Below, piece after piece: positions 3,244 to 31,294 of a stretch of 31,294 nt of DNA. Source of the DNA: a virus; IMG/VR virus record IMGVR_UViG_3300042934_000441, positions 1 through 31,294 of that record. One strand, 5' to 3'. A model generated the notes under the pieces. The model saw only the letters and a list, made by a program, of their open reading frames with translations. It made no database searches and was not told the origin of the DNA. A program made the position numbers and the translations under genes. Each line of letters begins with the position of its first letter. Positions within the stretch are counted from its first letter, which is position 1.

Positions 3244-4326
3244 TTAAAACTGTTTACCAGTACACGGGTCGTAATGATGACCACCGATCGGGTAACCTTG
3301 GTTAAGTTGCGGCTGGAAATGCATCTGCTGGGTAGTAGATGCTGGATCCATGTGCGGCATACCGTTGGCGGCATCCGTTGCAGGGTGACCGGTAGGTATT
3401 CCTGGGTTACCAAACTGCATTGGACTAAGTGGCGAACTACCCGCACCAAACATCGGAAAATTCATCCCGCCCATCATTGGTTGCTGAGGCTGTTTTGCAG
3501 CCATCGCTTCAGACTCTTCAATAAAGAGGTTAATGAATGCCGGAGAGAAGCCAGCGCGGTCAAACGCCAATACATGCTGAACCAGATGCTGATTGGTAAT
3601 GACTTTATCGCCGTAGTGGTATTCTGTTTCCTGTGCTTGGAACTGCGTCGTCATGTACGCGTACTGACCGGTGCGCACCTGTTCGAAAGTTCTGACGAGA
3701 TGTTCATCAGCTTTGAACAGCCGAGACTGACGAAGCGACGCGCCCAACTCCATGTTCATCAGAGTTTGCTTAACAGTGATGGTGTTATCGAGCACTTTCC
3801 AGATGCGATTATAATCACAGCAATGTGCACGACAATGCGTTTTCACTTCACCGTTTGCACGGTACAACCCTTTTGACAACATCCACTCAGCCATTTTAAC
3901 ACGATCATCAATAACGATGTGCGCCAGGTTAGGTGCGCCAGGTGGTGTCAGCAGTTGACGAAATACTTGCTGGACCACTGCATGTTCTGCATTGGCTTCG
4001 GTGTTGCCTTCCATACCCAGGATGTTAATGCCGAGACGTGGTCGTTCAGCCGTACCAAATGCTGTTCCTAAAACTGATAACCCAATACCGATGCTTAAGA
4101 ACGGTGTGTCTTCACCCAGCGGGTAGAAGCTTGCCACCCATTCACCGTGCAATGTGTTTTCATCGCAGTCCTGGCCGTAGATGACTGGCTTTTCGTCATA
4201 CTCTTCCGAGACCAGCTCAACAACCATCTTAGACGCATCATCGAACTCTGCTTTGTATTGCGTGCAGATGAAGTTCTTTTCGTTGACTGGGGATTTGATC
4301 AGGGACGTAGTTAAGTTAAGGCTCAT
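3244..4326 (-). CDS. Unknown protein with prion-like C-terminal tail (360 aa)
   Basis: A 360-residue protein in two parts. Residues 1 to about 275 look folded. They contain a Cys/His cluster near residues 164-170 (HCRAHCC) that could bind metal, and alternating strands and helices. Residues from about 278 to the end are low complexity, rich in Gln, Met, Pro, Gly and His (for example KQPQQPMMGGMNFPMFGAG and later TTQQMHFQPQLNQGY), with almost no charge. That is the composition of disordered, self-associating segments. I do not recognise the family. The gene has its own terminator and is preceded by an unusually long, highly foldable leader whose last helix can cover the SD (AGGA, 9 nt from ATG). 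This suggests regulated translation. Confidence 0.78.
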   Translation of the reverse strand: MSLNLTTSLIKSPVNEKNFICTQYKAEFDDASKMVVELVSEEYDEKPVIYGQDCDENTLHGEWVASFYPLGEDTPFLSIGIGLSVLGTAFGTAERPRLGINILGMEGNTEANAEHAVVQQVFRQLLTPPGAPNLAHIVIDDRVKMAEWMLSKGLYRANGEVKTHCRAHCCDYNRIWKVLDNTITVKQTLMNMELGASLRQSRLFKADEHLVRTFEQVRTGQYAYMTTQFQAQETEYHYGDKVITNQHLVQHVLAFDRAGFSPAFINLFIEESEAMAAKQPQQPMMGGMNFPMFGAGSSPLSPMQFGNPGIPTGHPATDAANGMPHMDPASTTQQMHFQPQLNQGYPIGGHHYDPCTGKQF

Positions 4327-10607: not shown

Positions 10608-13600
10608 TTACTCCTGCAGTGAATGGCGTAACTTGATTGCGTTTTTGGTCACCGTGTACAAGTAGGAGTTCATGGCACCGATGATGTACGGCGAGGTCAC
10701 CATACGGTTCGCGATCGACAGGTTGGAGAAGATTGCTCCCACTTCCAGACCGTTGACCGTGGTGATGCGTTCGTCGTAGATGTAACCAAAGGTTGATTTC
10801 ATCTGGTTGGCAAACACACCTTTATCACCGATAATGGTTGGCATAGGCACGATCAGGTAAACGTAGATCACCGCTTGTTTGTTCTCAAGCGTGTCACCAC
10901 CAATACGCAGACCACCCATAACCTCACCGGTTTCCGCTTTACTGCCACGCATCTGACGATTCAGTTTGCGGCGTTCGCGGTCAGACCGGTTAGCCACAAT
11001 GGCCAGGGACTCCGACATGTCCTCAATGCTACCCCGATACAGCACCTCAATTTTTGCGACACGACCGGTAGCTTTCGCTTTCGGGTTGTCGTTGCCAAAG
11101 ACACGAAGACCGTCGTAACTGCCGTCGTCATCCAGGCCAAGCTGGGCGCTCACCAGGTTCTCCAGGGTACATAAGATTGTTTCCTGATCGACTTCGTCAC
11201 CGACCGTTACCAGGTTACGTACCTCTTGATCGAAGTTAACCAGAATCGGAATTGGCTTACCGGTAAAGGTTGCCAGTTCCTTACCTACACCACGATAAAT
11301 CATCGAGGAGTCTTCGTAGGTAAACTGATCTTCCATCAACGCTGTGTTGACCATCACCCCGCCTTTCCACGAGACCTGCGTAGGTTCCATGAAATCGCGC
11401 TCGAAGTAGTTGCGGTTCCAAACGATCACATGACCTTTCTTCACCGTGTCGCCCGCTTTCATATCGGTAACAATCTCATGCACATACATCGTACCTGAGG
11501 CTGACCCAAACCGTGTTCCGATTTCGACACCCACCACACGATCACCGTAATCAACCAGCACGTGCTTGTCGCTGACTTCTGTGATCACCCCATCCCCTTC
11601 TGCAGGGTAGGCAAAGATCTTGGTGACGCGGTGCGCCAGCATACGCTCAGCACCGGTACGGTACGGCGTAGTTTTGTATCCCACTGCATACATACCCTGG
11701 GAGTGCTGGACCGAGGTAAACATCACACGTTGTGGTGAATCACGGTCAGAGCCTGGGTTAAGCATGGCAGTAAAGGAGACCAAACTTGCTGGGTTGGTTT
11801 CATCGGTGGCAGCTTGAGCGTTTCCGCGCAGGTCTGTCAACAACGGATCACCCACCATGTGCGCCGTGTAACCAACATCGGAGTTATCCACCGACGACTC
11901 AGAGACCACGCCCAGGTTATCAGGAATGAATTCACGAGTAGGTTTGGTCATGGAACGCGCAGTACGTCCGCCAGTACCACCAAAGGTGACTACTGAGTAA
12001 TCCTTGGAGCTGTGGACGGGGTTGCACTCTTCGACCGGGGTGGTTGCAGTGTCGTCAAGCAACGCGTACCACACCGCATCCGGATGAAGTTCCAGTCCGG
12101 CTTTGGTAGCGACGGCTCGTGCTTTCAATTGACGGGTTGCTTTCACCAGTTCATTGTACACCGCGCCAGCCACACGCTCGGAACCACGCACACGTTGTTC
12201 ACGCATTGAGGTCTCACGAATGTGTTGATCGTTTAGCAGCATCTTAACCGCATGCAGCAGTAACAGATCCCAGCGGGTTGGCGCACCCATGCGTTTCAGT
12301 TCTTCACGCGTAATCGGGTCAATGAACATATCACGCATCAGATCGAGTTCACGCACCCAGCGCACACCCATACCAGCTGACGCCAGTAAGTTGGAGTACA
12401 CGGATTTACGGTCAAAGTCGTAGCGGCTAAAACGCTGCACTTCTTTGTCGTAATAGTTGAACCCGTTCAGCAGCATCGCGGCAAAGCGGTCGCTGCGGTT
12501 GAATACCAGCACCTCATCGTTAAAGGTAACGGTACGTTCATCCGCGGTCAGGTTAAGACGCTCACCACGCTGAGCAATACGAACCTGCAACTGCAGTTGT
12601 TCGATCATCACCGACAAGCCGTAGTAGTAGGCCAGGATCACACCCACGGGAATGGCTTTACGGAAGACCTGCAGCTCCACAGTTTCCACCGGTGCTTTGG
12701 CAGCATCTAGCCCTAAGAAGGTTTCGAAGTCACCCAGCTGTTCCAATGAATCCCCGTTGGCCAGATACAGTGCACCCGAGTCATCCATCAGTACCGGGCT
12801 GCCTTGACGGTGTCCACAGATTGCCAGCTTGTTTGCGTAGTACCGATCCCACAGCTCTTCACCAAACTGGGCTTTGATCTGTTTGATGGAGAACAGGAAC
12901 GAGATACCCTGATAGTCGAACCCTTTATAGCGCTGAGAGATGACCGCGTACGTATGTGGCACCCGAACACTGGATACAAAGTAACGCCCAATCACCAGAT
13001 TAGAAACCGGCGGCTCGTACGTTGAATCACTTGGGTTAGCCAGTGACATCAAGTTAATGCGGTTGCCCAGCCACTTACCGTAGTCATGTACCGCCTTCTC
13101 AGAACGGGTCATGAAGCTCTTACCGTAATAAGAGGTCATGGAGACTTTGGTAGAGGAGACTTTGCGAATCGGAATATCAACACGCTGTTTACGCACACGG
13201 CTCTTAACGTTATTCACCAATGTGGTGCCGTCTTCTTCGAGCTTTGGTACACGGAAACGAATCGTGCTGACCTTCCCGCCCACGGGCTGCACTTGCACGG
13301 CATAGACCACATACGCGGTGACTGCATCCTGTTTCTCTTCGCGCTGGTAATCGAGTACCGCTACACCCGCACCCATCACCGACATCACCGCGTTCGCAAT
13401 GTCAGACTCCAGGACGTTGTTGATGTAGTTCTTGTCGAGGTTAACCAGACAAGTGGTCAGCATGCCTTTATTCAGGATACTGATTGAGTCAGGCGCTTCA
13501 CCACCGGAGAGATCCGTCAGCACTGTCGGGTCAATCTTCATCAGATCAGCCAGTGTGCCTTCACCCACCGGGTTAGGGATGTTTTTGTACTGTTCAGCCA

Positions 13601-15269
13601 GGCGTTGGAAACGTTTGTATTCCGCTGCTGACAACATCCCTGCATCGGCCAACACTTCCACCTGTGCCAGGACACCGTCTTCCGGTTTTGCTTCCACGTT
13701 GTTATTGGGAACGACTTGTGCAACCCGGCCTTCACGGTCATGGTTGAATTCATCGTCCGCAATCTCGTCACCAAAGCTACGTTGTTCGTAGACTTCAATG
13801 TCGGTCAGTGGCTCATCACCGTCGGTCTTCTTGGCTGCAGCAGGTTTAGCCGGTTCAGGTTCATCCAGTGTTGGGATATCCACACCGAATACCGAAACAG
13901 GTTTAGCAACCGGTGCCGGTGCATCTTCTTCATCAATCTCCGGTTCTGCACCCTCGGTCTGTTGAGCCGCCGGTGGAGCAATTGCCTCAATGACTTCAGG
14001 CTGCTCCGCTTCTTCGCTGATTGATGTGCCACCGGTTTTCACTTCGAACAACTTGGTCATGAACTTCAGCATGTGTTTGCGGAAGTTGTCCAGACCGTTG
14101 TTGCCCTTTGACTGTTTCAGGATCTCTTCACGCCACTTTTCAATGACATCAAGACGCACCACAGTGTACGCGCCCACGTTACCAAATACCAGGTGGATCT
14201 TTTCCAACTGTTTCGGATCGTGATCAAGCATGCTGAACAGGGACGCTTCACGGTTACTCCCTAACCATAGCCAAAAGTGAATGAACCAATAATCATTCGC
14301 CGTACGCAGACGGTTCATGACTGACATCTGCAGTTCAGGCTTAAAGCGCATGACACGTGACTGGAACGCGCCCAGGGCTTCCATGCCGGCAGACAGATCG
14401 GTCAACAGCGGCTCGTAGTTCGGCAAGGTGCTCGGGATCAGGAAGACTTCATTCCCGGTTGCCATGCGGATCAAGGTATCCAGTAACCGACCATCTTGGT
14501 TACTGATACGCGCACCTGGTTCCCACGCTTGGTCCGACGCACCGTAATACGCATCACGGGTATCTTCGAACGCTTCGAGTGCCGCATCAATTAACATACC
14601 CTGGTCGTAGTCATCCAAGTTTTCCAGGCCCGCACCGTACCACTGACTCACGGGCACGCCGTCCATCCAGGCTTCGGTACCCACGCCCTGAATCTTGTCC
14701 AACCCTTTTGCCATACGCTCATCGTAGACACGCAGCTGTGACAGCTGAGGCAGTGACGCCGGCATCTGTAAATAGATGAACTGGTTACGCTCAGACTCTT
14801 TCTGGATGTTGGTCATCCGTTCCATCACAGTGTACTGCATGTTGTACCAGCGGAAGTAGTTCACGAACATCGCTGGACGATAGGTCAACTGGTGTTGTGC
14901 CATCGCGTAGTTTTCAACAATACAGTAGCGCTGGTTCGCCATCACTGACGCAATGTTACGGACCAGCTTGAAACGTTTGTGACGGTTATGATACTGCTTG
15001 ATCATGTTGTTCAACGACAACGTCTTGACCTGGGGATTCCCCAGAGGCGTTTTGATTTGACGCACATGGTCAATATAGACGTCATCGCTGTACTTGTTAA
15101 TCAGCAGGTCATTTTGCTCGATACCGTATTCGGTCAGATCCGACGGGACGTAGTGCAGTAATGCGCCACGGGGTAGTTCAAAGTCAGCCAGCGGGAAGAA
15201 GTGCGGGCTGAATACGTGCTCTTTCTTTCGCACACAGATCTTACGAAAGAAGCTATTATACAAAATCAT
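10608..15269 (-). CDS. Virion RNA polymerase beta subunit, main part (phiKZ gp178-like)
   Basis: A 1553-residue subunit of the multisubunit RNA polymerase carried in the virion. Diagnostic beta motifs lie in the C-terminal third: GANMQRQ-like SVQHSQGM; FTYEDSSM with Glu1319-Asp1320 matching bacterial FEDS; GDK (Lys1483) and NQMK (Lys1491), the two active-site lysines at exactly the bacterial spacing of 8; then SIANRM matching bacterial PSRM. The chain stops shortly after that, so the bacterial C-terminal clamp segment is missing; it is encoded at 29801-30469. Residues about 408-530 are an acidic, Pro/Ala-rich, probably disordered linker with a possible protease site (Ser418-Glu-Glu420). It starts 10 nt after the beta' stop, with AAGG overlapping that stop, so the two are coupled. 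Confidence 0.92.
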   Translation of the reverse strand: MILYNSFFRKICVRKKEHVFSPHFFPLADFELPRGALLHYVPSDLTEYGIEQNDLLINKYSDDVYIDHVRQIKTPLGNPQVKTLSLNNMIKQYHNRHKRFKLVRNIASVMANQRYCIVENYAMAQHQLTYRPAMFVNYFRWYNMQYTVMERMTNIQKESERNQFIYLQMPASLPQLSQLRVYDERMAKGLDKIQGVGTEAWMDGVPVSQWYGAGLENLDDYDQGMLIDAALEAFEDTRDAYYGASDQAWEPGARISNQDGRLLDTLIRMATGNEVFLIPSTLPNYEPLLTDLSAGMEALGAFQSRVMRFKPELQMSVMNRLRTANDYWFIHFWLWLGSNREASLFSMLDHDPKQLEKIHLVFGNVGAYTVVRLDVIEKWREEILKQSKGNNGLDNFRKHMLKFMTKLFEVKTGGTSISEEAEQPEVIEAIAPPAAQQTEGAEPEIDEEDAPAPVAKPVSVFGVDIPTLDEPEPAKPAAAKKTDGDEPLTDIEVYEQRSFGDEIADDEFNHDREGRVAQVVPNNNVEAKPEDGVLAQVEVLADAGMLSAAEYKRFQRLAEQYKNIPNPVGEGTLADLMKIDPTVLTDLSGGEAPDSISILNKGMLTTCLVNLDKNYINNVLESDIANAVMSVMGAGVAVLDYQREEKQDAVTAYVVYAVQVQPVGGKVSTIRFRVPKLEEDGTTLVNNVKSRVRKQRVDIPIRKVSSTKVSMTSYYGKSFMTRSEKAVHDYGKWLGNRINLMSLANPSDSTYEPPVSNLVIGRYFVSSVRVPHTYAVISQRYKGFDYQGISFLFSIKQIKAQFGEELWDRYYANKLAICGHRQGSPVLMDDSGALYLANGDSLEQLGDFETFLGLDAAKAPVETVELQVFRKAIPVGVILAYYYGLSVMIEQLQLQVRIAQRGERLNLTADERTVTFNDEVLVFNRSDRFAAMLLNGFNYYDKEVQRFSRYDFDRKSVYSNLLASAGMGVRWVRELDLMRDMFIDPITREELKRMGAPTRWDLLLLHAVKMLLNDQHIRETSMREQRVRGSERVAGAVYNELVKATRQLKARAVATKAGLELHPDAVWYALLDDTATTPVEECNPVHSSKDYSVVTFGGTGGRTARSMTKPTREFIPDNLGVVSESSVDNSDVGYTAHMVGDPLLTDLRGNAQAATDETNPASLVSFTAMLNPGSDRDSPQRVMFTSVQHSQGMYAVGYKTTPYRTGAERMLAHRVTKIFAYPAEGDGVITEVSDKHVLVDYGDRVVGVEIGTRFGSASGTMYVHEIVTDMKAGDTVKKGHVIVWNRNYFERDFMEPTQVSWKGGVMVNTALMEDQFTYEDSSMIYRGVGKELATFTGKPIPILVNFDQEVRNLVTVGDEVDQETILCTLENLVSAQLGLDDDGSYDGLRVFGNDNPKAKATGRVAKIEVLYRGSIEDMSESLAIVANRSDRERRKLNRQMRGSKAETGEVMGGLRIGGDTLENKQAVIYVYLIVPMPTIIGDKGVFANQMKSTFGYIYDERITTVNGLEVGAIFSNLSIANRMVTSPYIIGAMNSYLYTVTKNAIKLRHSLQE

Positions 15270-15279
15270 AAAGGGTCCC

Positions 15280-16896
15280 TTAGCTGGTAAGAGCTTTTAA
15301 TACGAAATCCAGGGTATCGTTGGTTAAGTCGATTAAGAATTCACCACGACCTGTGATGTACGTTTCTCGTTTCGCTAACGACTCTCGGCATTCACGCAGG
15401 ACGTCATCACCCAACAGCACCGTTGCGCCACAGGTGTCACCGTCGTGGTCCGCACCCAACAGCCCCATACGGGACGCGTGCATGGACAGTGATTCCATGA
15501 ACTCCGCTTCGCGTTCATTGGTTGGGAACTCAATAGCATAGGCGCCTTCAATAGGCTCCCAGTATTCGTCACGTTCCTGCTTGACCGATGATTTCAAGGT
15601 GGTGCAGCAATACGCTTTGGTTTGGTAAACTGAACCCATGCCTGTGATAGGATAACGCACCACCAACATGTACAGATCGTTCCAGCGTTTGTAGCCGGAC
15701 AAGTACATGAGTTCGGTGTACGTCATGGGGTGCACGTACTTCTTATCGAAGTTCGCTGGCAGTTCACTGATGTCGCCAAAGACCTTAAAGGTGTGCTGAT
15801 CGCTGTACACCAATCCCAGGTAATACCCGTTCACCGTGATGGGTTTGTTACGCAAGGTAGAGTCACGGAAACCGTTGATCAGTTTCTCTAACCCTTCTTG
15901 TGTGGTCCATTTGGTTAAGGTCGTGACATCAATCTCGACATCACTGGCGGTCAACGTCTTGCGATCAATCAACCGCGCTAGCGTACCTGAGGAGAAGACC
16001 TGTGATAACCAACCGGTCTGCAACAAATGAATGGTTAACGGCAGGGCACCACGAATCAATTGATAAAGACCAATACGGGTGTCGTTGATGTCCGGTGCCG
16101 TTTTAGACCCAAGCGTTGCGGTACCTAACTGAACAGCAGTGATAACGTTACGTGTGCCGTTGAATACCCGGCGGCTACCCCATTTCTGCTGAAGTAAGCC
16201 ACGCTTACCGGACAACATACCCGCATAGTACTCGTAGAGCTCGTTAAACCGGTTCTGCAGCGTCCAACGTGCTGTGTCATACAAACTCCCGTTTGCAAGC
16301 TCCGGATCGTCTGTGATGGTGTTAGCGGCGCTTAACAGCTTACGGTACATATCGTTGACTTCGTTCTCAACGGTACGACCACGCTCATCAATCTGGATCT
16401 CACGTAAGCCAGCAGGTAGCACCAGGATGTTGCGGTGCATGGCACGGTCTTTATATTTGTTAACCAGCTTGATTTTATCACTGCGTTTCGGGGAGCCGGT
16501 CTCTTTGAATTCGATGTCTTTCCAGTGCTTGACAAAGAAGGCAAAACCGGTTTGACCCTCAAGTGCGGATGATTTTATGAAGTCCTTTTCATTTTCATCC
16601 CACACCGCGTATGTGTTACCCGAAAGGATACCGGCGTACATCTGTTTCAAAGCCACGATGCTCTTAAACATCTCTGGGTGGAAAACAGAACTTTTAATGT
16701 GGATGTAACTGAAACGCTCGTCACGTTCCTCGGAACCCACACGACCGAAGATCGGGATGGAGTATAAACCGCTGTCGTTGAGGTCGGTGGTTAGACCGTC
16801 GTAAATGTCTAACGACGTTACCGGTCGCATCATCGCCCACGGAATACGCTGCGGGTTGGTTAATTCAATGTTAAAAGGCAGCATAGCCGATCGCAT
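15280..16896 (-). CDS. Virion RNA polymerase beta' subunit, N-terminal half (phiKZ gp180-like)
   Basis: A 538-residue protein carrying the catalytic motif of beta'. GADHDGDTCGATVL contains Asp483, Asp485 and Asp487 in the DxDGD arrangement that holds the active-site magnesium (bacterial NADFDGDQM). Upstream are KRGLLQQKWGSRRVFNGTRN, which fits the bacterial double-psi barrel approach ([20 protein letters not shown] type), and PMTYTELMYLSGYKRWN. The protein ends about 50 residues after the motif, so the trigger loop and C-terminal half must be another gene (phiKZ gp80 type), not in this window. AAGGA SD. First gene of the leftward operon, starting 38 bp from the divergent tail gene. Confidence 0.92.
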   Translation of the reverse strand: MRSAMLPFNIELTNPQRIPWAMMRPVTSLDIYDGLTTDLNDSGLYSIPIFGRVGSEERDERFSYIHIKSSVFHPEMFKSIVALKQMYAGILSGNTYAVWDENEKDFIKSSALEGQTGFAFFVKHWKDIEFKETGSPKRSDKIKLVNKYKDRAMHRNILVLPAGLREIQIDERGRTVENEVNDMYRKLLSAANTITDDPELANGSLYDTARWTLQNRFNELYEYYAGMLSGKRGLLQQKWGSRRVFNGTRNVITAVQLGTATLGSKTAPDINDTRIGLYQLIRGALPLTIHLLQTGWLSQVFSSGTLARLIDRKTLTASDVEIDVTTLTKWTTQEGLEKLINGFRDSTLRNKPITVNGYYLGLVYSDQHTFKVFGDISELPANFDKKYVHPMTYTELMYLSGYKRWNDLYMLVVRYPITGMGSVYQTKAYCCTTLKSSVKQERDEYWEPIEGAYAIEFPTNEREAEFMESLSMHASRMGLLGADHDGDTCGATVLLGDDVLRECRESLAKRETYITGRGEFLIDLTNDTLDFVLKALTS

Positions 16897-29800: not shown

Positions 29801-30469
29801 TTAAAGGTTGTTGGTCAGCATCATTGCGTGCAGGATAGCACCCACCGTCTTGGTGGATTTTACCTTGGTCTTTTGACTGGCAATGGCACCGACGTTCACA
29901 CCGCCTGTGGCGATGATCTCGTTGTTGTAACTCCGGTAAGCGGCTTCATCACCCCCACGCACCTTCAACAGCTCCTGCATGGTTTTGTTCATCCCCATGG
30001 CGTACAGGATCTGAATCTCAGGATAGGAGATAGCGGAACCTTTCGATTCGGTGGTAGGCTGACCGGTCAGGTCGTCAACGTGCTTGTTATCTTTGGGTAC
30101 CGACATCTTCTTCTGTAGCTTCTGCTGCTGGATACGCAGCGGTAGACGCAGAATAGGATACTCAATCGGTGTCAGGAAGCGCTGGCTGGTTTCGAAGTCA
30201 ACCATGTTGATCTTCTCCATGAACGCACCACCTTCCTTGGTGATTAATCCGATCAGGTGTTCCAGGTCGATGTTCTTACCCGTGAAGTTCGGATGGTAGA
30301 ACGGAAAGGACTCATCATCCTTTTCCATGCGGTCCATCATCGCATCAAAGGCAGCGTCATCCAAACGACCAAAGTAGTCGCGGTAGATGTCAGGGTTTTT
30401 GTTCCCCGGCATCACCTGATCCATTGCCCCGATCAGGTATTTCTCAATAGCAGCACGTGCAGCGTTCAT
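29801..30469 (-). CDS. Virion RNA polymerase beta subunit, C-terminal clamp piece (phiKZ gp149-like)
   Basis: This 222-residue protein supplies the part of beta missing from the 1553-residue subunit. Its residues about 110-185 line up with the bacterial beta C-terminus. PIEYPILRLPLRIQQQKL fits the PVTVGYMYMLKLNHL strand; LTGQPTTESKG fits VTQQPLGGKAQ; ISYPEIQILYAMGMNKTMQELL then KVRGGDEAAYRSYNNEI fits [22 protein letters not shown] then TVKSDDVNGRTKMYKNI. In phiKZ the virion enzyme is gp178, gp149, gp180 and gp80, with gp149 far from gp178, as here (14.5 kb apart). The N-terminal 100 residues have no clear bacterial counterpart. The start lies in a TAA-CCC-ATG junction behind the NADAR-SLOG gene, with AGGA. 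Confidence 0.82.
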   Translation of the reverse strand: MNAARAAIEKYLIGAMDQVMPGNKNPDIYRDYFGRLDDAAFDAMMDRMEKDDESFPFYHPNFTGKNIDLEHLIGLITKEGGAFMEKINMVDFETSQRFLTPIEYPILRLPLRIQQQKLQKKMSVPKDNKHVDDLTGQPTTESKGSAISYPEIQILYAMGMNKTMQELLKVRGGDEAAYRSYNNEIIATGGVNVGAIASQKTKVKSTKTVGAILHAMMLTNNL

Positions 30470-30472
30470 GGG

Positions 30473-31294
30473 TTAGTCCTTGCTGAATATAAACACGAAA
30501 TGGCTTATATTATTTTTCACAAGAAGGTCAATCATGTTTTTGGTGCCACGCGACTCACCGTCCCAGAAGATCAGACCCGCATCTACCATCTTACCCATAA
30601 CCCCATTGCGAATCATGCCGGCAGGTTTCTGATACTTGTCCCACAATGCAGGACGGCCGATTAACCCATGACCTTGTTCGCGTGCATAACGAATCGCCAT
30701 GTTGTCAGGACCATCCAGTGCCAGACCGGTCACAAGTTCAATGTCGTAGTCTTTATCAAACGGTGTGATAAAGTTACTGATGTACTCGTCCGTGATCTGT
30801 TTGAACAGGCTGTAGTTCTTCAGGGTGCGTGAGCCCGCAATCAAGATCTTCATGGGTTTCTTCCTGGAGCTCTCAGATTCTTCTTGCATTTTATTCCGGT
30901 ACTCCACGTAGAAGTCCAGCTGCCATTGATGCCGCGCCTTCATATCCCGGACTGCATCGTTGCCGTACACGTAATAGTGTTCAAACGGCAGTGATGAGTT
31001 CAGGAGCTCTGAGCGCAGGATCTCATTTTGTTCGAGGCGTAACCGCATGCCTTCTTTGAAACGTTCCTGGAAATCGGGCAGGTCTACCCGTTCCATCTTG
31101 GAACCGATCTGCTTGGCTTCAAACCCGTTCATCTGTTTGAACTGTTCATGTTTGCAGCCTGTGGCCAACCAGTACCAGTATCCTTCTAAACATTCGAACC
31201 ATCCGTGATCCTCATGCAGGAAACCATGTTTCGACAGGTTGCTTAACCGACGTCCGAGACTGGTGCTGCTTTTGGTCCAGATGTTGATATGTTC
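30473..31294 (-). CDS. NADAR-like domain fused to SLOG (DUF2493) domain, partial at N-terminus
   Basis: The frame is open to the window edge; 273 residues are visible. The first 150 look like a NADAR (YbiA) fold: RRLSNLS matches the SNF strand, CLEGYWYWLATG matches the T-E-HYY helix with its catalytic-type Glu, EAKQIGSKM matches the Ala-Lys-x-Gly turn, and RLEQNEILRSELLNSS matches the K-x-x-Q-N-x-x-L-x-x-x-L-x-x-T signature. Residues from MKILIAGSRT onward are a clear SLOG/DUF2493 domain: GSRT, DGPDNMAIRYA, GMIRNGVMG, FWDGESRGTKNMI. NADAR proteins act on ADP-ribose groups and SLOG domains bind nucleotides, so an NAD or ADP-ribose role, perhaps against host defence, is inferred. The first 16 nt of a canonical start site lie inside the gene at 30853. 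Confidence 0.8.
   Translation of the reverse strand, partial: EHINIWTKSSTSLGRRLSNLSKHGFLHEDHGWFECLEGYWYWLATGCKHEQFKQMNGFEAKQIGSKMERVDLPDFQERFKEGMRLRLEQNEILRSELLNSSLPFEHYYVYGNDAVRDMKARHQWQLDFYVEYRNKMQEESESSRKKPMKILIAGSRTLKNYSLFKQITDEYISNFITPFDKDYDIELVTGLALDGPDNMAIRYAREQGHGLIGRPALWDKYQKPAGMIRNGVMGKMVDAGLIFWDGESRGTKNMIDLLVKNNISHFVFIFSKD
30851..30868 (-). promoter_or_regulatory. Internal ribosome binding site and ATG before the SLOG domain
   Basis: CAGGAAGAAACCCATG at 30853 is in frame inside the NADAR-SLOG gene, exactly where the SLOG domain begins (MKILIAGSRT). The same 16 nt form the real start of the 64-residue membrane protein at 1195. Translation from here would give a 126-residue SLOG-only protein ending at 30473. 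Confidence 0.55.

Follow-up and report, generated by a model that had tools for sequence, protein, structure and literature searches.

A jumbo-phage protein joining a DarG-type macrodomain, a phage NADAR domain and a YAcAr SLOG domain, with a possible role in removing ADP-ribose from DNA bases

The gene at the end of the analysed DNA (31,294 nucleotides of IMG/VR record IMGVR_UViG_3300042934_000441, hereafter the window) almost certainly belongs to a 429-aa protein composed of a DarG-type macrodomain, a phage (gp30.3-type) NADAR domain and a YAcAr SLOG domain, as judged from sequence and structure prediction. Based on these data and on analogy with characterised relatives, the protein may be a counter-defence hydrolase whose main role is the de-ADP-ribosylation of nucleic-acid bases, a reading to which we give a substantial but not a majority share of belief. 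More tentatively, this single phage protein might reverse both known DNA-base ADP-ribosylations and serve as an antidote to DarTG1 and DarTG2, with the SLOG domain sensing or handling the released nucleotide.

Gene, locus and domain architecture

The ORF at positions 30,473–31,294 (minus strand) consisted of 273 codons without an upstream stop up to the contig edge, that is, with an open 5' end. The upstream part, which the initial annotation had placed beyond the window, could be supplied by an IMG/VR relative (L001), which agrees with the window at 99.1% of nucleotides across 5,819 b and with the window ORF at 100% of its 273 aa. The full-length fusion gene is located at L001:4533–5822 (plus strand) and places the true ATG 156 codons (468 b) past the window end; the window gene is thus 5'-truncated and covers residues 157–429 of the 429-aa protein. 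The whole gene is spanned by two near relatives in IMG/VR, L001 and L002, the latter carrying a 429-aa gene with about 94–95% identity. A 231-aa ORF starting with TTG (30,473–31,168) was rejected as the gene, because full-length homologues begin far upstream.

The closest isolates to the 31 kb window were SA002 and pEa_SNUABM_37/48, with about 77% nucleotide identity. These phages have genomes of 288–294 kb, and the earlier label of jumbo phage is therefore well founded. The adjoining gene (29,801–30,469) encodes a piece of the phage RNA polymerase beta subunit (phrog_3233, 2.7e-83), in agreement with a polymerase gene next door, which may be of the virion or the non-virion type. Split phage RNA polymerase beta-type subunits were distributed in the window at 10,608–16,896 and at this adjoining position (phrog_3148, phrog_2986, phrog_3233). 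In L001, a second, weaker SLOG gene is located directly upstream of the fusion (L001:4107–4520; YAcAr 2.7e-4) and is itself preceded by a UvsX-like recombinase gene (L001:2633–4018; phrog_97, 1.1e-45).

Sequence and predicted fold together reveal three domains, a macrodomain (residues 1–146), a NADAR domain (about 153–298) and a SLOG domain (about 304–429), together with most of the catalytic residues of the first two. A profile search of the whole protein matched Macro and YAcAr SLOG and left the middle empty, the region covered by phrog_652 in the PHROGs database (5.8e-32). The full-length predicted model had a pLDDT of 88.7. As macrodomains crowded the fold matches to this full-length model, the NADAR domain was folded separately. 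The SLOG domain (30,476–30,853, minus strand) belongs to the YAcAr/YspA (DUF2493-like) family, with matches to PF10686 (1.4e-6) and phrog_289 (9.5e-24). The SLOG/DUF2493 assignment of the initial annotation could thus be confirmed, with a Pfam YAcAr score of 28.4 bits that is barely above the curated cut-off of 28.2, below which two relatives fall.

Macrodomain and NADAR domain

The macrodomain is encoded beyond the contig end and is invisible in the window. It matched PF01661 Macro (4e-11, residues 21–128), PADLOC DarG (9.3e-43) and NCBIfam antitoxin_DarG (3.2e-40), in the latter two cases through the macro part alone. The best PDB relatives were T. aquaticus DarG (5m31, 4.5e-24), M. tuberculosis DarG (4e-22) and DarTG (7omu, 1.7e-18), followed by TARG1 (5e-8), and fold comparison gave Z values of 21.9/21.6/20.9 for DarG/DarTG, 18.0 for TARG1 and 16.2 for Poa1p. 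The ADPr pocket was kept, with T20, N22, T79, K80, G117, G119, N120 and G121 of TaqDarG corresponding to T21, N23, T76, K77, G114, G116, N117 and G118. By sequence and predicted model, the N-terminal domain is a DarG-type macrodomain, closest to DarG among known macrodomains. The K80A substitution in TaqDarG abolishes activity, and the DarG macrodomain by itself rescues cells from DarT (PMC5179494).

The NADAR domain lies at 30,869–31,294 (minus strand) for the part inside the window (residues 157–298). The phrog_652 profile that matched it also takes T4 gp30.3 (9e-51) and, with a weak match, the YbiA protein of E. coli (1.1e-7). The initial annotation had graded its NADAR call as less sure than the SLOG call and had named beforehand a profile search of the N-terminal part as able to refute it; a NADAR match was found by profile-profile comparison, although PF08719 was silent. 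Using hhalign, a profile of 80 relatives matched nine bacterial NADARs at 97.2% over 133 columns and four gp30.3 proteins at 94.5% over their full length, while the macro domain and SLOG domain controls gave 0.3% and 0.1%, respectively. The AlphaFold2 model of the middle domain alone (mean pLDDT 96, pTM 0.90) has the NADAR fold, so that the second refuting outcome named beforehand, a model lacking it, did not arise either. Its best PDB fold matches by Foldseek and VIA-align were the three solved NADARs, including the YbiA suggested for comparison, with VIA-align Z values of 12.4, 11.7 and 9.9 to E. coli YbiA, P. nicotianae NADAR and G. lovleyi NADAR (2b3w/8bau/8bat) and 2.2 for the next match. 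Searched directly, Pfam NADAR (PF08719) matched neither the window protein nor its relatives. T4 gp30.3, whose NADAR activity has been measured, was likewise missed by this model, so its silence is uninformative. With the middle domain as query, phmmer returned nothing from the PDB, and a 14-sequence profile of the domain returned 8bau alone (E 0.06). The middle domain is best described as a divergent phage NADAR, whose superfamily membership, based on the predicted fold together with profile evidence, is firm.

Every motif listed in the initial annotation was recovered, at S174-N175, E193 ahead of the YWYW helix, A216-K217-x-x-G220 and Q245-N246-x-x-L249 (full-protein numbering), with the one correction that the motif given as AKxG is actually AKxxG. 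Deep conservation could be observed among 80 aligned relatives at G187 and F189 (80/80 each), E193 (78/80), H262 (77/80) and A216 (76/80). E193 (31,184–31,186, minus strand) aligned with 8bau and YbiA as the counterpart of the Glu that holds the distal ribose in NADARs (E43 in P. nicotianae, E88 in E. coli C7), the role of which has been described (PMC11543638). H262 (30,977–30,979, minus strand) aligned with the LKHS of T4 gp30.3 and represents the last-strand His that replaces Glu/Asp (E125/D171) and marks phage NADARs (PMC11543638, PMC11125620).

The site of the phosphate-binding Lys present in most NADARs (K50/K95) is occupied by A200 (31,163–31,165, minus strand), and Lys is not conserved at this position among the 80 relatives (K 21, S 16, A 14, L 12, R 9; K or R in 30/80). 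The corresponding K95 is essential in the E. coli C7 NADAR (PMC11543638), and a Lys or Arg seven residues past the Glu was kept in all four gp30.3 proteins translated. The missing Lys therefore weakens the claim of an ordinary guanine-ADPr hydrolase, while membership of the fold is unaffected. Other basic positions were well kept (209, R/K in 74/80; 217, K/R in 76/80), and judging from the alignment these residues could stand in for the missing Lys. Overall, the conserved residues and the predicted fold suggest that the NADAR domain is probably, not certainly, enzymatically active. In four other loci (L032, L035, L067 and L089), NADAR-like genes occurred in tandem; the second ORF (about 3445–3940) mostly lacked E193 or H262 and is likely to be a non-catalytic paralogue.

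Distribution among phages and possible functions

Within the set of loci retrieved, macro, NADAR and SLOG were fused in L001–L004, in pEa_SNUABM_37 and, more distantly, in L026, whereas Agricanviruses and L023–L025 carried a macro gene adjoining a separate NADAR-SLOG gene, and most other phages carried NADAR alone. SA002 (L015:1443–3319; MGA_142/MGA_143) showed a tandem partial duplication of 590 b with 98.3% identity, which yields side-by-side macro-NADAR and NADAR-SLOG genes; this recent duplication could be either real or an assembly product. A tree of fused and split forms gave long branches and no resolution, and is consistent both with splitting of a fused gene and with fusion of split genes. 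Of 27 large phage records in which this NADAR occurs, 23 also encoded a macrodomain at some position, a co-occurrence to be read without a baseline as these records were picked for NADAR. A scan of genome contigs yielded no more than seven NADAR relatives, all of them distant and located in MAGs and one plasmid. Another large phage contig carries a DUF4326-NADAR-SLOG fusion (L039:2701–3795; DUF4326 4.6e-23). The phiEco32-related phages, represented by Escherichia phage Paul (L129, gp034–gp032), encode a DarG-like macrodomain with 40% identity to that of L001; a sigma factor lies between it and a SLOG-like 'GTP-binding protein' located two genes away.

The counter-defence function suggested in the initial annotation is plausible on sequence grounds, and the DarG-type macrodomain narrows the proposed target, away from NAD-based defence in general and towards ADP-ribosylation of DNA bases. 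DarTG2 and DarTG1 are both reported to act as phage defences (LeRoux et al. 2022, as cited in other papers). Removal of ADP-ribose from DNA bases is the simplest reading, because thymidine-ADPr is the substrate of DarG macrodomains and guanosine-ADPr that of NADARs; thymidine-ADPr was beyond the reach of the NADARs tested (PMC11125620). In the infected cell, the protein would free the bases of phage DNA from ADP-ribose, its macrodomain removing thymidine adducts made by DarT2-type toxins via Lys77 and its NADAR domain removing guanine adducts made by DarT1-type toxins via Glu193/His262. We infer both substrates from the sequence and from analogy with characterised relatives. For the SLOG domain, the most likely ligand is an ADP-ribose-like nucleotide, and binding would serve to sense this ligand or else to retain or process the product after its release; we also infer this role, which is the least certain part of the mechanism. 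Several points count against base erasure, namely the missing NADAR Lys, the varied substrates of macrodomains in general, the lack of a DarT-blocking domain, the soluble-ADPr argument of Iyer et al. and the behaviour of T4 gp30.3, a phrog_652 member that hydrolysed guanosine-ADPr in vitro and did not rescue cells from DarT1 (PMC11125620). Even in the absence of a DarT-binding tail the protein may protect, because the DarG macrodomain alone rescued cells from DarT.

The soluble-ADPr argument leads to a different and rather unlikely function, in which the protein degrades or sequesters small host-defence ADP-ribose signals (Thoeris-type cADPr variants, ADPr-1''-phosphate), every one of its three domains cutting a different bond or holding the ligand. 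Iyer et al. predict this explicitly for phage Macro/NADAR/SLOG fusions (PMC9503650, PMC7824862), and YpsA-like SLOGs, the clade of the present SLOG, are described there as binding cADPr variants in defence systems (PMC9503650). The presence of SLOG in the fused copies and of the second SLOG gene just upstream is consistent with such a function. However, the macrodomain is nearer to DarG than to TARG1 or Poa1p among solved structures, and it retains the catalytic Lys of DarG/TARG1.

The protein might otherwise serve RNA repair or RNA de-ADP-ribosylation, with the macrodomain clearing the cyclic ADPr phosphate that KptA/Tpt1 generates and the NADAR domain clearing guanosine-ADPr from RNA, which we regard as improbable. 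NADARs do process guanosine-ADPr in RNA, where the T4 NADAR is weakly active, but phosphate-end ADPr is not a NADAR substrate (PMC11833690). The KptA/Tpt1 RNA 2'-phosphotransferase (PF01885) was found in the related Agricanvirus Ea35-70 (W02, 68,384–68,890, 7e-40) and in G003 (85,960–86,463, 1e-40), whereas no match was obtained in SA002, SNUABM_37 and G001, the fused- or duplicated-gene phage records searched. An RNA-repair role is accordingly possible for the Agricanvirus branch.

DarT (PF14487) was not found in the 27 related phage records, including SA002, SNUABM_37 and Ea35-70, in a search whose control worked, and a toxin-antitoxin pair of the phage's own was thereby ruled out. The lack of DarT in related genomes also argues against the very improbable case in which the protein undoes ADP-ribosylation by the phage's own transferase and times host takeover. 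T4-like phages express NADARs early alongside their ARTs (PMC9503650), which is consistent with that case. The ART families PF03496 and PF18760 gave no match, but neither did their controls.

If DNA-base ADP-ribose removal is correct, the protein would represent a repair-type counter-defence that is built from two separate bacterial antitoxin chemistries and acts against both DarT classes. The frequent pairing of macro and NADAR in jumbo phages would then be easier to explain. Two readings, DNA repair and the soluble signals of the published work, are confronted here within a single protein amenable to purification and assay.

Comparison with known systems

The macrodomain resembles the DarG antitoxin macrodomain of DarTG2 (5M31/5M3E/5M3I, 7OMU) in its Macro fold, with 34% identity over 146 aa, and in the ADPr pocket and catalytic Lys, while K29 and Q34 of TaqDarG are replaced by R30 and Y35. 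Unlike DarG, the phage protein has neither the C-terminal domain that binds and blocks DarT nor a DarT partner and carries NADAR and SLOG instead; it is therefore not DarG itself, merely DarG's macrodomain. For the anti-DarT factors AdfA (RB69) and AdfB (ICP1), the proposed mode of action is binding of DarT and not reversal of the modification (PMC11481870).

With T4 gp30.3 and other phage NADARs (PF08010, phrog_652), the middle domain shares a common PHROG, the full-length profile match, the Glu and the last-strand His. In contrast, gp30.3 is a stand-alone protein with the Lys (Arg in an Acinetobacter phage) seven residues past the Glu, which the subfamily of the window protein mostly lacks. 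The likeness to the YbiA/NADAR superfamily (2B3W, 8BAU, 8BAT; DarT1 antitoxin) extends to the fold, the SN motif, the Glu, AKxxG and the last-helix Arg, but identity is about 15%, the catalytic Glu/Asp is replaced by His and Lys50/95 is not conserved.

Phage SLOG, Macro and NADAR domains are described as often fused or adjacent, with counter-defence predicted, by Iyer et al. 2021, 2022 (PMC7824862, PMC9503650). The fusions reported there share these domain classes and occur in jumbo phages, whereas soluble ADPr derivatives are the substrates those authors prefer. In the open-licence PubMed Central papers found, the DarG identity of the macrodomain and the exact architecture appear to be unstated, and a description elsewhere is possible. 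Agricanvirus Ea35-70 carries the same three domains side by side (Ea357_151 and Ea357_152), yet in two genes and not one; in Agricanvirus annotations, the macro gene is named Appr-1-p / phosphatase and the NADAR-SLOG gene is named hypothetical or DprA-like.
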